From the NCBI GenBank assembly GCA_029561345.1, contig JAKQJC010000007.1, positions 1 through 64,000 on the forward strand: DNA of 64,000 bases, read 5' to 3'. The notes below the pieces were generated by a model. It ran no database searches and had not been told where the DNA came from. It saw only the letters and a list, made by a program, of their open reading frames with translations. Source of the stretch: Chloroflexota bacterium. Lineage in GTDB: Bacteria > Chloroflexota > Anaerolineae > Anaerolineales > Anaerolineaceae. Numbering within the stretch: the first letter of the stretch is position 1; the number at the start of each line of letters is the position of its first letter. The position numbers were made by a program, and so were the translations under genes. Positions 23,432 to 26,821 of the stretch are shown piece after piece.

Positions 23432-23938
23432 TCAGGCGGGAAGGCGGCCTCCCCACAGCCGCCTTTCCACCAGCCAGGCATCGGCAGGCGCCAGCAGCTT
23501 CACCGGGCTGGCATCCAGCCAGGCGCGCGCCTGGGCATCGAGATTGAATGAGGCTTCAAAGAGCCGGTAAATGGCATCGTTGTCATCATCGGCGGCAATC
23601 CGGTTGATCGAGACGGCGCCGCAGTCGCTGCAGCCGTGAATCAGCATCAGTTCGCCCTGGTTGGCGCCGTATTTTTTGCGGCTTTGCTTCAGAGTCAGGC
23701 CAATGGGGCGCATGGCGCCGCGGCAGGCCGAAAGACGGTCTCCCGCGGCGTACAGATCCATGTGGCGCGACCAGAGGCAGAAGGGGCAGTGGTTGCGGTT
23801 GTGCACGCCGCACACCAGCGGGTTGGCGGTGACATAGGCGCGGCAGTGAACGCAGTTGAAATCGCTGTTGATACCACCATAATTGGGGTTGCCGTGCGGG
23901 CCGGTGAGCATGGGGTGGTCGTAAAGATGGCGGCTCAT
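23432..23938 (-). CDS. RNHCP-domain zinc protein
   Basis: 168 aa. The N-terminal part carries the domain's namesake motif in HNRNHCPFCLWSRHMD, preceded by FNCVHCRAYV and followed by the HGCSDCGAVSINRI pair, giving three CxxC or CxxxC sites that probably hold zinc. The C-terminal half (ASFNLDAQARAWLDASPV) is helical. Function of the family is not established. The start overlaps the rsgA stop as ATGA, so its translation is coupled to a ribosome-assembly GTPase. That suggests, as inference, a role at the ribosome or on RNA. Confidence 0.88.
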   Translation of the reverse strand: MSRHLYDHPMLTGPHGNPNYGGINSDFNCVHCRAYVTANPLVCGVHNRNHCPFCLWSRHMDLYAAGDRLSACRGAMRPIGLTLKQSRKKYGANQGELMLIHGCSDCGAVSINRIAADDDNDAIYRLFEASFNLDAQARAWLDASPVKLLAPADAWLVERRLWGGRLPA

Positions 23939-24927
23939 GCTTCGGCCCTCAGGTGCAAGTAGCTTTGCCAGCGGCGCGGGCTGATCTGCCCGGCGGTGAC
24001 CGCCTTGCGCACGGCGCAGCCGGGTTCTTCATCGTGGCGGCAGTTGAGGCCAAAGCGGCACTGCCCCAGGTAAGGACGCATTTCAGGGAAGCAGCCAGGC
24101 AGTTCATCTTCACTGATATCCCACAGGCCAAATTCGCGCACCCCCGGCGTATCCAGAATGGAACCGCCGAAATCCAGCTCGAACATTTCGAGGTGGGTGG
24201 TGGTGTGCTTCCCCTTGCCGGTGATCTGGCTGACGGCGTTGACGCGCAGGCCCAGACCGGGCTGCAGGGCATTCAGCAGGGAGGTTTTGCCCACCCCCGA
24301 TTTGCCCATCAGCACCGACATGCGCCCTGCTAGCGTCTCGCGCACTTCATCAAGGCCGGCGCGGCTGTTGGCGCTGGCCAGCAGCACGGGATACCCCGCC
24401 TGGCGGTACTCGGCGGCTGCCTGCAGCAGGTCAGCTTCCACCCGCCCGTTTTCGTCCATCGCCAGGTCCAGCTTGGTGATGCAGATGACGGCAGGCACGC
24501 CGGCGGCTTCAGCCATCACCAGGTAACGGTCAAGCATGCCCCATTTTGGGGCCGGGTTGGCTGCTGCAAACACCGGCACCACCTGGTCCACATTGGCGGC
24601 AATGATCTGCTCGAAAGCATGGGCGCCGGGCATGGGGGTGGCGGTGGGGCGCGAAAGGTGGTTGCGGCGCGGCTCAACGGCAGTGATCTGCCCGCTGCCG
24701 CCGCCAGTTTCGCTGACTAAAACCACATCGCCCACGGCCACCGGATCGGTGTGTTCAAAGGTGTGATCCACTTTCTGGCGTCCGCGCCCTTCGGGCGGTG
24801 TTTTGGCACGCAGGCGCGGCGAAAGGGTGCAGTTGAGGCTGCGGTCAGAGAGGTGAACGGTATAGATACCGGTGTTCTTTTTGAAGACGATACCCTTGTT
24901 CGGGTCGGTGATGCGGTCAGTACTCAT
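23935..24927 (-). CDS. rsgA: Small ribosomal subunit biogenesis GTPase RsgA (YjeQ/YloQ)
   Basis: 330 aa. An N-terminal OB-fold (about 12-90) is followed by the circularly permuted GTPase order: G4 TKLD (151-154), G1 GKSGVGKT (208-215), G3 DTPG (259-262). The C-terminal zinc finger has Cys290, Cys296, His298 and Cys304. RsgA checks the decoding centre of late 30S particles and is released by GTP hydrolysis. The start has CTTAAGGAA upstream. A strong intrinsic terminator lies only 17 nt before the start and belongs to a leader with a small ORF, so expression is probably set by attenuation. It is co-translated with the RNHCP protein. Confidence 0.97.
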   Translation of the reverse strand: MSTDRITDPNKGIVFKKNTGIYTVHLSDRSLNCTLSPRLRAKTPPEGRGRQKVDHTFEHTDPVAVGDVVLVSETGGGSGQITAVEPRRNHLSRPTATPMPGAHAFEQIIAANVDQVVPVFAAANPAPKWGMLDRYLVMAEAAGVPAVICITKLDLAMDENGRVEADLLQAAAEYRQAGYPVLLASANSRAGLDEVRETLAGRMSVLMGKSGVGKTSLLNALQPGLGLRVNAVSQITGKGKHTTTHLEMFELDFGGSILDTPGVREFGLWDISEDELPGCFPEMRPYLGQCRFGLNCRHDEEPGCAVRKAVTAGQISPRRWQSYLHLRAEA

Positions 24928-24944: not shown

Positions 24945-24979
24945 AAAAAAAGCCAGCCACGAGATATCCCGTGGCTGGC
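24945..24979 (-). terminator. Attenuator terminator upstream of rsgA
   Basis: Perfect 10-bp stem GCCAGCCACG/CGTGGCTGGC (24970-24979 with 24952-24961), 8-nt loop, then seven T residues on the minus strand (24945-24951). It stands between the leader peptide ORF and the rsgA start, so it must be read through for rsgA expression. Confidence 0.92.
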
Positions 24980-25149
24980 GGTGTTTTGATTCATGCATGG
25001 ATGCGCGGCAGGGTCACAGGGCCGCGGGACGGCCTCTGGACAGGCTTAAATCAAAAGCCACGGGAACATGAACGCGCCCGTGGCCAGATGGTCTTATTCT
25101 TAAGGAATAAAGACGGATCTCAGCCTAGAAGGACAGGCGCGTCCATGTC
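24968..25149 (-). promoter_or_regulatory. Mutually exclusive attenuator RNA structures of the rsgA leader
   Basis: Three alternative pairings are visible. (a) Segment 1 (25136-25149, inside the leader ORF) pairs over 14 bp, with two G-U pairs, with segment 2 (25065-25078). (b) Hairpin A pairs GCCACGGG (25077-25084) with CCCGTGGC (25057-25064) and holds most of segment 2 in its loop. (c) TCCCGTGGCT (25056-25065) pairs perfectly with AGCCACGGGA (24967-24976), the 5' arm of the terminator. Pairing (a) breaks hairpin A and frees the strand needed for antiterminator (c). Hairpin A leaves the terminator free to form. A further hairpin, GTCTT(T)ATTC/GAATAAGAC, spans 25091-25114. Confidence 0.72.
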
Positions 25150-25193
25150 TCTTGTATGGAAACAAGCACCGATGCATTGTATTTATTAGACAT
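25125..25193 (-). CDS. Leader peptide of the rsgA operon (22 aa)
   Basis: Start ATG at 25193 with an ideal AAAGGAG (25202-25208) 8 nt upstream, and stop TAG at 25125-25127. The peptide begins MSNKYNASVLV and ends ETWTRLSF. It has no coding match I recognise and is too short for a domain. Its last codons (Thr-Trp-Thr-Arg region) contain RNA segment 1 of the attenuator, so a ribosome on these codons would decide the fold downstream. A good promoter precedes it. Interpreted as a regulatory leader ORF; whether the peptide stalls ribosomes in response to a compound cannot be told from sequence. Confidence 0.75.
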   Translation of the reverse strand: MSNKYNASVLVSIQETWTRLSF

Positions 25194-25242
25194 AAAACGC
25201 GCTCCTTTCTTTAGAGATCCGCAAAAAATTTCAGACAGTCAG

Positions 25243-25272
25243 AGTGTATCACAGCCGTCCGGCCCCTGTCAA
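25243..25272 (-). promoter_or_regulatory. Promoter of the rsgA leader
   Basis: On the minus strand TTGACA (25267-25272), 18-nt spacer, TACACT (25243-25248), with the start near 25236, about 43 nt before the leader ATG. The -35 lies within a short inverted repeat CCCCT-TGAC-AGGGG, which could be an operator. It begins 29 nt beyond the stop of the upstream gene. Confidence 0.75.
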
Positions 25273-25300: not shown

Positions 25301-26821
25301 TCAATTCAGCGTCACCATCTCATAATTCAGGTTTTCATCCACAAAGTGGAGATACAGGCATTTCAGGTTTTCACTCCCGGTCATCCAGGCGGCACGGCCG
25401 TCGAGCATAAAGGCGTCGTCGCCGCGCGGCAGGTGGTAGTCGCTGGTGATCAGGGTGGCCGGGCGCAGAATAGTCCCTTCGTCATCTATCAGCATGGCAT
25501 AGACGCCGTGGTAGTCGCTTTCCCACCAGTTTCCTGTGTTCCGCCATTCTTCCCACAGGGCAATGTAACGGTCGCCGCCCAGGGCCACCAGCTTGGGGCG
25601 CTCGGCGTGCAAATTGGAGGCGTCCGAATAGGCCGTCAGCCATTTCAGCCGGTTGGTGCGCGATGTGCCGGAGGAGGTCACGGTCAGGGTATCCGGCAGG
25701 TTGGGGTCAATGCTGTTGTCGCTGCCCTTCACCCGCACCATGGCCAGGTTGCGCGCCCCGTTGATGGTTTCGGCGGTGGCGGCATTGCCCTCGGTGACAA
25801 AAAGGGCCAGGTATTTGTAGGTGGGATCCCCTTCGATCAGTGCGAGGTTGCCCAGGCGGGTGTAGGTGACATTATCGCCAAGGCTGCCCTTGATGTGAAA
25901 GAGTGGGTAGCTGGTGTGGTTGCGGGCAAAAACAATATAGCGGGGGTAGGCGTCGCCCAGGTGATGCTCAATGATGCCGGCGCCGTCGTACAGCAGGCGT
26001 TCATCGAAGGAGTGGCTCACCCAGACCGACGAAGTGCGCGTGACGGCGCCGGTGGCGGCGTTCAGGCGGGTGGATAGGGCCTTCTGGTGGCGTGTGCCGT
26101 TGAGCTTGGGGTCAGGCCCGGTGTTGATGCCGTGTACCAGAGCGATCTCGTTTCCACCCACCAGCAGGCGCGAGGTGGCCGCCACCATGGGGTTGATGAT
26201 CATTTCCGCATTGGCGTTAAAATTGTGACGGGCGATGTCAAGATCAATATTGAACAGCACGCTGCCCGCGGCGTCGAGCTTGACCACGCGCACAATGTTG
26301 CTGCGGTAGGTGTTAGCAGGCGGGTAGGTGGCATTGACCACGTCATCTTCATATATCCCCGTGGCGTAGTAGCGGCTGCCGGAACTGTCGATGGAAAGCC
26401 CCATCACCAAATCAATAAACGGCATGTTCGTCAGGGCCTGGGTCACCTTGTAACCGGAGCCGGTGATGACAGGTTCAACGTGCAGCAGCACTGCCTTCCA
26501 GGCGGTGGCATCGTTGTAATCCTGCGCCAGCACATCCAGTTCAGTGCCATCAGAGGCAACAATGATTTGCGGCGTCATGCCGTAATTGGAAGACCAGCTC
26601 TCCGGACCGTTCAGGTCGTATAGATTGACGTCAAATGGAGTCAGCACCGAGGAAACCGGGATGCTGGATTCCGGCCCAACCACCATCGGCAAAAACAGGC
26701 GGGTTTCGTTCGGAACGCCAGGAACCGCTGTTTGCACAGCCGATTGCGCCGCCCCTGCAGGGATCAGCGCAGCCAGAATCAACAAAAAAGAAACCAGACG
26801 CATAATCCGTTGAGACATCAT
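25301..26821 (-). CDS. Secreted protein of unknown function with post-signal LFLPMVV motif
   Basis: 506 aa. Signal peptide with hydrophobic core MRLVSFLLILAALIPAG, cleavage near AAQSA. Directly after it comes ETRLFLPMVVG, the short hydrophobic motif also seen at the end of other secreted proteins here. The rest is beta-rich with repeated 'I.V....G' and 'RYYATGIY', 'RYIVFARNH', 'YIALWEEWRN' type strands, compatible with a beta-propeller, but no named family is recognised. GGAGGGATG gives the start (two adjacent Met codons). Likely exported and perhaps surface-held. Probably transcribed alone, since the downstream rsgA leader has its own promoter. Confidence 0.82.
   Translation of the reverse strand: MMSQRIMRLVSFLLILAALIPAGAAQSAVQTAVPGVPNETRLFLPMVVGPESSIPVSSVLTPFDVNLYDLNGPESWSSNYGMTPQIIVASDGTELDVLAQDYNDATAWKAVLLHVEPVITGSGYKVTQALTNMPFIDLVMGLSIDSSGSRYYATGIYEDDVVNATYPPANTYRSNIVRVVKLDAAGSVLFNIDLDIARHNFNANAEMIINPMVAATSRLLVGGNEIALVHGINTGPDPKLNGTRHQKALSTRLNAATGAVTRTSSVWVSHSFDERLLYDGAGIIEHHLGDAYPRYIVFARNHTSYPLFHIKGSLGDNVTYTRLGNLALIEGDPTYKYLALFVTEGNAATAETINGARNLAMVRVKGSDNSIDPNLPDTLTVTSSGTSRTNRLKWLTAYSDASNLHAERPKLVALGGDRYIALWEEWRNTGNWWESDYHGVYAMLIDDEGTILRPATLITSDYHLPRGDDAFMLDGRAAWMTGSENLKCLYLHFVDENLNYEMVTLN

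Follow-up and report, generated by a model that had tools for sequence, protein, structure and literature searches.

A conserved leader-peptide attenuator upstream of rsgA2 in Anaerolineae and its putative induction by stalled ribosomes

The rsgA2 locus and its leader

Examination of 64,000 nucleotides of DNA from an assembly of the Anaerolineaceae (Chloroflexota bacterium, contig JAKQJC010000007.1, positions 1 to 64,000; hereafter the window) revealed, upstream of rsgA2, a gene coding for an RsgA-family GTPase, a leader with a short open reading frame (ORF) and several alternative RNA pairings. We propose, with a probability of about 0.78, that this leader is a stall-triggered, ribosome-mediated transcription attenuator from a family conserved in Anaerolineae, which would induce ribosome-directed genes of resistance type. 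The leader, rsgA2 and the RNHCP gene that follows it all have their coordinates on the minus strand:

25243-25272, minus strand: sigma-70-type promoter TTGACA-18-TACACT (-35 at 25272-25267, -10 at 25248-25243)
about 25208-25198, minus strand: Shine-Dalgarno (SD) sequence AAAGGAG/GGAGCGCG
25187-25209, minus strand: segment 1, spanning the SD sequence and the start codon; complementary to segment 2, with which it pairs in the free RNA (P 0.98)
25125-25193, minus strand: leader ORF of 22 codons, MSNKYNASVLVSIQETWTRLSF (ATG 25193, TAG 25127-25125)
25161-25172, minus strand: S-V-L-V, codons 8-11, proposed stall motif
25136-25149, minus strand: segment 2, 5' side of the antiterminator, GACATGGACGCGCC, within the end of the leader ORF, covarying with segment 3
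25065-25078, minus strand: segment 3, 3' side of the antiterminator, GGCGCGTTCATGTT, 5' arm and loop of T1
25056-25084, minus strand: T1 (hairpin A of a preliminary description), terminator-like hairpin, then a T-rich stretch
25056-25065, minus strand: segment 4, 3' arm of T1, TCCCGTGGCT, pairing 10/10 with the 5' arm of T2 (24976-24967)
24945-24979, minus strand: T2, intrinsic terminator, hairpin 24979-24952 and T-run to 24945, 17 nucleotides before the rsgA2 ATG (24927)
23935-24927, minus strand: rsgA2, second RsgA-family GTPase, 330 amino acids (TIGR00157)
23432-23938, minus strand: gene for an RNHCP-domain protein of 168 amino acids, overlapping the rsgA2 stop (PF12647)

The transcript is predicted to start near 25236, and nearly all of the 38 leaders examined carry a TTGACA-like -35 and a TANANT-like -10 element 16-18 nucleotides apart. 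Segments 2 and 3 of the window pair at 14 of 14 positions, two of them G-U. The preliminary description, made from the letters of the window, had listed the promoter, ORF, ribosome-binding site, 14-bp and 10/10 pairings, hairpin A and terminator, and each was found where it had been placed. Absent from it were the pairing of the SD region with segment 2, the terminator-like character of T1 and the second rsgA copy. A search of the window with the Rfam covariance models gave two tRNAs only and no family match to the leader, and comparison of the other leader loci with Rfam, including T-box and known leaders, gave irrelevant matches only, all below gathering score.

Conservation and covariation of the leader

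The same leader element precedes almost all rsgA2 genes, about 30 orthologous genes, and is also present, in several genera, before RNHCP genes that are not accompanied by rsgA2. In a MAFFT alignment of 35 leaders, the antiterminator helix between segments 2 and 3 (2:3) is 86% paired and 12 of its 14 pairs have changed on both sides. None of 500 shuffles of this alignment reached the observed pairing, which falls to 26-62% when the register of the helix is slid. T1 is 96.8% paired, with a highly conserved hairpin sequence. A duplex test independent of the alignment gave a mean of -21.2 kcal/mol for 2:3 partners of the same locus and -16.1 kcal/mol for swapped partners (0/2000), and covariation of this helix was seen again in 69 leaders, mainly of other genes. 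The duplex of the SD region with segment 2 is likewise stronger within its own locus than when swapped, both in rsgA2 leaders and in leaders of other genes (0/5000 each). Over 84 loci, the 3' arm of T1 and the 5' arm of T2 form 514 of 588 possible Watson-Crick pairs, for a shuffled mean of 499 (0/5000).

Twelve further leaders, located by way of the RNHCP protein instead of the RNA model, score 39-100 bits with that model, eleven of them at least 76, and most encode a peptide of S-V-x-V type. The segments of a subgroup of these leaders change together, segment 2 reading CGCGTC and segment 3 GGACG, the T1 3' arm TCCGTGG and the T2 5' arm CCACGGA. The model found no match at five housekeeping rsgA1 loci, nor at RNHCP loci outside Anaerolineae. 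T1 is terminator-like in many relatives, with strong T-runs after it in leaders of other genes. T2 hairpins are present in most rsgA2 and RNHCP leaders, in counts that are approximate because one automatic hairpin finder missed T2 hairpins seen by a second finder or by eye.

The leader feature is well beyond chance, and its covariation, as read from the alignments, supports a mutually exclusive terminator and antiterminator. The reading of the window leader as a leader-peptide transcription attenuator, for which the preliminary description had proposed covariation in relatives as a check, is strongly supported by this conservation and compensatory change, and we consider it almost certain that the attenuator is real and conserved.

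The leader peptide and its S-V-[LIV]-V motif

Nearly every homologous leader has, by sequence and conservation, an ORF with a ribosome-binding site, and a core of the type MFNxASVLV is common to the predicted peptides. An in-frame TCG codon is present in 24 leaders, of which 21 have Val at +1 and 19 have Val at +3, the residue between the two being mostly Leu, Ile or Val; the motif is S-V-[LIV]-V. All four Val codons are used at +1, so that third bases are free and amino acids are kept. The last motif codon lies 22-23 nucleotides from the GCGCC of segment 2 in 25 of the 26 leaders with a good motif, and the stop codon follows the motif at a variable distance of 2 to 16 codons. A ribosome with the last motif codon in its P site would have its leading edge near the start of segment 2. 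The stall motif of RLR/MRLR type known from the erm, mef and hflXr class is not present in rsgA2 leaders, which carry S-V-[LIV]-V instead, and for this reason we did not file the rsgA2 leader in the macrolide/antibiotic-inducible class. The pattern S-[IV]-x-V presumably resembles the arrest motifs of the ErmC and ErmA leader peptides, a likeness that we take as a lead only. In two leaders of the genus Longilinea (L137, L141) the ORF begins within a few nucleotides of the putative transcript start and lacks a clear ribosome-binding site, and these ORFs are possibly leaderless. Culturable carriers of the leader include Ornatilinea apprima P3M-1 and Longilinea arvoryzae KOME-1, the latter with a divergent version.

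Starvation for valine, or for serine or leucine, could also stall a ribosome on hungry SVLV codons. The chassis is apparently capable of such sensing, as judged from the Leu-Leu-Leu and Asn runs before synthetase genes described below. Yet rsgA2 and RNHCP have no link to valine metabolism, the Val codons number only 2-3, and the motif usually starts with Ser and keeps a fixed pattern written with all four Val codons; an amino-acid starvation attenuator is unlikely at this gene.

Predicted folds and ribosome position

Equilibrium folding was modelled for different positions of the ribosome. In the ribosome-free window RNA, the pairing of the SD/start region (25209-25187) with segment 2 dominates with P 0.98, and 18 of 23 rsgA2 leaders, the window included, take the T1 form. 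An untranslated rsgA2 leader is therefore predicted to terminate, because its SD region pairs with segment 2. With a ribosome at the stop codon the antiterminator is lost in essentially all 35 modelled leaders; in the window leader, a ribosome at codons 2-5 favours the antiterminator (P 0.96-0.98). The modelling is in line with the earlier proposal that an early stall leads to antitermination and completed translation to termination. It does not support, for rsgA2 leaders, the companion proposal that few active ribosomes would also give antitermination. Stalling is very probably the condition that turns the switch on.

The position of the stall is less sharply constrained. About half of the rsgA2 leaders change fold when the ribosome sits at codons 1-4, and fewer do so when it sits at the motif, which is divergent or missing in three leaders (L132, L161, L163). 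These observations favour a general stalled-ribosome sensor, in which any early arrest induces and SVxV merely tunes sensitivity, but the conservation of the motif at the amino-acid level and its fixed spacing argue against it. We regard such a sensor as a minority view that deserves consideration.

The downstream genes rsgA2 and RNHCP

The product of the window gene scores 228.6 bits against TIGR00157 (cut-off 100). Its earlier assignment as an RsgA GTPase stands as to family, but the gene is not the housekeeping copy. The same genome carries another rsgA, rsgA1, on a different contig and lacking this leader, and a tree of 56 proteins places the leader-bearing rsgA2 copies and rsgA1 on opposite sides of a branch with 100/99 support. 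The rsgA2 copies are monophyletic and do not fall within the housekeeping rsgA1 clade of Anaerolineae. Since this branch separates the two, the window gene is, by its sequence, an accessory paralog. The proteins also differ in their GTPase motifs, with TKxD in G4 and GKSGVGKT in the P-loop of RsgA2 proteins versus NKVD and GPSGVGKS in the rsgA1 product of the same genome. In one relative (L231, G007:C24) the rsgA2 frame is split in two behind a leader that looks intact, by gene decay or assembly error, and in another (L163) a RIO-like gene follows rsgA2.

These results bear on the function first suggested for the switch, a homeostatic loop that would supply more RsgA for 30S maturation whenever translation capacity is low. 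Such a loop would share the RNA anatomy described here, and the fold model does give read-through with an early-held ribosome. Against it, rsgA2 is a patchily distributed second copy, the five rsgA1 loci tested lack this leader, ribosome-free rsgA2 leaders are predicted to be terminated, and the same switch stands before ABC-F proteins, pumps, GNATs and other resistance-type genes. We consider the loop very improbable.

The window RNHCP-domain protein scores 85.5 bits against PF12647 (cut-off 24), and its gene follows rsgA2 both here and in about 30 relatives. RNHCP is itself patchy, occurring in 10 of the 396 genomes sampled across the class and in 57 of 147 from the family. In Spirochaetales and Treponema too it adjoins an RsgA gene (L390, L394, L400), and this neighbourhood, kept despite an RsgA identity of 32-33%, suggests from gene order that RNHCP and RsgA are functionally linked. 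An AlphaFold model of RNHCP, with a mean predicted local distance difference test score (pLDDT) of 75.8, had no meaningful match in the PDB, and no paper on RNHCP function was found in the literature searched.

Other genes behind the same leader

Leaders were searched with covariance models, R1 and then R2, that contain the 2:3 helix, and the longest ORF nearby was taken as the downstream gene of each match. R2 matched in 177 of 396 genomes of the class Anaerolineae (E 0.001 or better); outside the class only a few weak matches were obtained. The genome of the window has four such leaders, before a DrrA-type ABC ATPase, an ABC-F protein, rsgA2 and a major facilitator superfamily (MFS) pump that several Mef models match, all below cut-offs. 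Among 73 genes behind matches, 20 have an ABC ATPase domain, at least 14 are GNATs, 10 have a RIO domain and 6 are RsgA, with four class-II synthetases (Asp) and one leucyl-tRNA synthetase (LeuRS). The family also fronts ABC exporters, MFS pumps, RIO kinases and tRNA synthetases. Two ABC-F proteins (L245, L278) exceed the NCBIfam cut-off for ribosomal protection. RIO-family kinase genes with the same attenuator were observed at L235, L262, L276, L277, L280, L288, L290, L294 and L296.

The type of leader peptide tracks the downstream gene. A run of Leu-Leu-Leu before LeuRS is the textbook mark of ribosome-sensing attenuation, and LeuRS leaders of two genera (L285, G360:C461; L452, G434:C16) carry such a run followed by a similar tail (LLLGxxNxxCWSxP). 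A second AspRS-like (aspartyl-tRNA synthetase) gene is preceded by Asn/Gln-rich peptides, for example MLFGILQANQNQQNNNPGVRLWEDQS (L282, L283, L289, L298). Peptide ends of PSRSAPV type occur before GNATs and ABC transporters, and of SxSEC(A/V)C type before several ABC-F genes. As to the Asn runs, a dependence of Asn-tRNA on AspRS as its only source was not supported: all five genomes tested have an asparaginyl-tRNA synthetase, and the AspRS behind the leader is a second AspRS-like gene. The conserved tail of L240, L243, L244, L247, L255, L303 and others, of type PSRSAPV-x-R or PCRIAPV, is partly dictated by the RNA segment; this tail might act as a separate arrest peptide.

High conservation of the hairpin sequences would also be expected of a leader that binds a protein or metabolite, for example in autoregulation by RsgA2, with the small ORF incidental. 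The same RNA fronts unrelated genes and matches no Rfam family, while the ORF is conserved and its peptide types follow the downstream gene, which makes a binding leader extremely unlikely.

A model for stall-triggered induction

In the model that we favour, attenuation released by a stalled ribosome, segments 1 (SD/start), 2 (ORF end), 3 (T1 5' arm and loop) and 4 (T1 3' arm) would act as alternative partners ahead of T2. Without a ribosome, segments 1 and 2 would pair (1:2), and T1 and T2 would end transcription. During unimpeded translation, a ribosome at the stop codon would cover segment 2, and T1 and T2 would again terminate. An early arrest at or before S-V-[LIV]-V would halt the leading edge just before segment 2, which, exposed, would pair with segment 3 and block T1; the freed segment 4 could then pair with the 5' arm of T2 and compete with that terminator, allowing transcription of rsgA2 and RNHCP. 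Given the conservation of the nascent-peptide motif and the other genes that the switch precedes, ribosome-targeting antibiotics, or a similar elongation stress, are the likely inducer, and RsgA2 and RNHCP may be induced factors of ribosome rescue or ribosome protection. The content of the regulon is suggestive of drug induction, and translation inhibitors are somewhat favoured as the natural inducer of rsgA2-RNHCP.

Several results weigh against this model. When a simple footprint places the ribosome exactly at the motif, 1:2 re-forms and T1 dominates in 22/23 rsgA2 leaders, and with the SD pairing excluded too only 7/23 flip; re-forming of 1:2 around a motif-stalled ribosome may be sterically impossible. 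T2 stays folded in every equilibrium scenario, so that segment 4 could relieve it only kinetically. RNHCP-only leaders lack the SD:segment 2 pairing, and about half of them are predicted to be on when ribosome-free. The ratio of nonsynonymous to synonymous polymorphism (pN/pS) of the leader ORF is just mildly low, in an ORF too short to decide. Kinship among the sequences inflates the shuffle tests given above, and the pair counts of other-gene leaders lean towards the 2:3 helix because the search model itself contains it.

Relation to known attenuators and resistance regulons

The nearest working analogue is rli80-hflXr of Listeria, where ribosome stalling activates the accessory gene copy for a ribosome GTPase (PMC6310831). 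Both systems combine a leader ORF, an alternative terminator and antiterminator, and an accessory ribosome-GTPase paralog. The Listeria system differs by its HflX GTPase, RLR motif and single terminator, no sequence relation was seen, and for rsgA2 the inducer and phenotype are putative. Attenuation by a leader peptide is also known for mef(E), and two adjacent terminators were noted in erm(K) (PMC4335068). The mef(E)/mel, erm(K) and msr systems share with rsgA2 transcription attenuation and a short leader peptide that bears a conserved motif, but their peptides are of M(T)xSMRLR type and no single RNA chassis serves many unrelated genes of one genome. The 1:2, 2:3 and terminator logic recalls attenuators of trp/leu type, as does the LLL leader before LeuRS within the Anaerolineae family, whereas segment 1 of rsgA2 is the SD/start region and its motif is a mixed nascent peptide, not a run of a single codon.

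In Streptomyces, the antibiotic-induced genes activated by WblC include an RsgA paralog, GNATs, ABC and MFS transporters, tRNA-synthetase paralogs and GTPases (PMC7157823). This WhiB7/WblC regulon resembles the leader-borne genes of Anaerolineae in content but relies on one trans-acting activator, where Anaerolineae have a cis attenuator for each gene. Tentatively, one chassis with swappable leader peptides may be a cis-encoded, distributed counterpart of the WhiB7 regulon, with RsgA2 and RNHCP as a new class of inducible, ribosome-directed antibiotic tolerance, S-V-[LIV]-V as an arrest sensor and one helix disabling two successive terminators. If so, any gene behind such a leader would be a candidate translation-stress or resistance gene, a handle for discovery in a large and poorly cultured class, and the leader peptide would hint at the inducing signal. 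After HflX, RsgA would be a further ribosome GTPase to have a paralog induced by drugs, the uncharacterised RNHCP family would receive its first role, and one attenuator body would be seen to serve a range of sensors, with Leu-tRNA sensed at one end and, apparently, drug-arrested ribosomes at the other.

The literature searched held nothing on leader-peptide attenuators of Anaerolineae and, for rsgA, attenuation and leader peptide combined, a stringent-response review only; the earlier remark that no leader-peptide attenuator of rsgA has been described agrees with this search. Finally, a 506-amino acid ORF with no match in Pfam or NCBIfam lies upstream of the leader, at positions 25301-26821 of the window.
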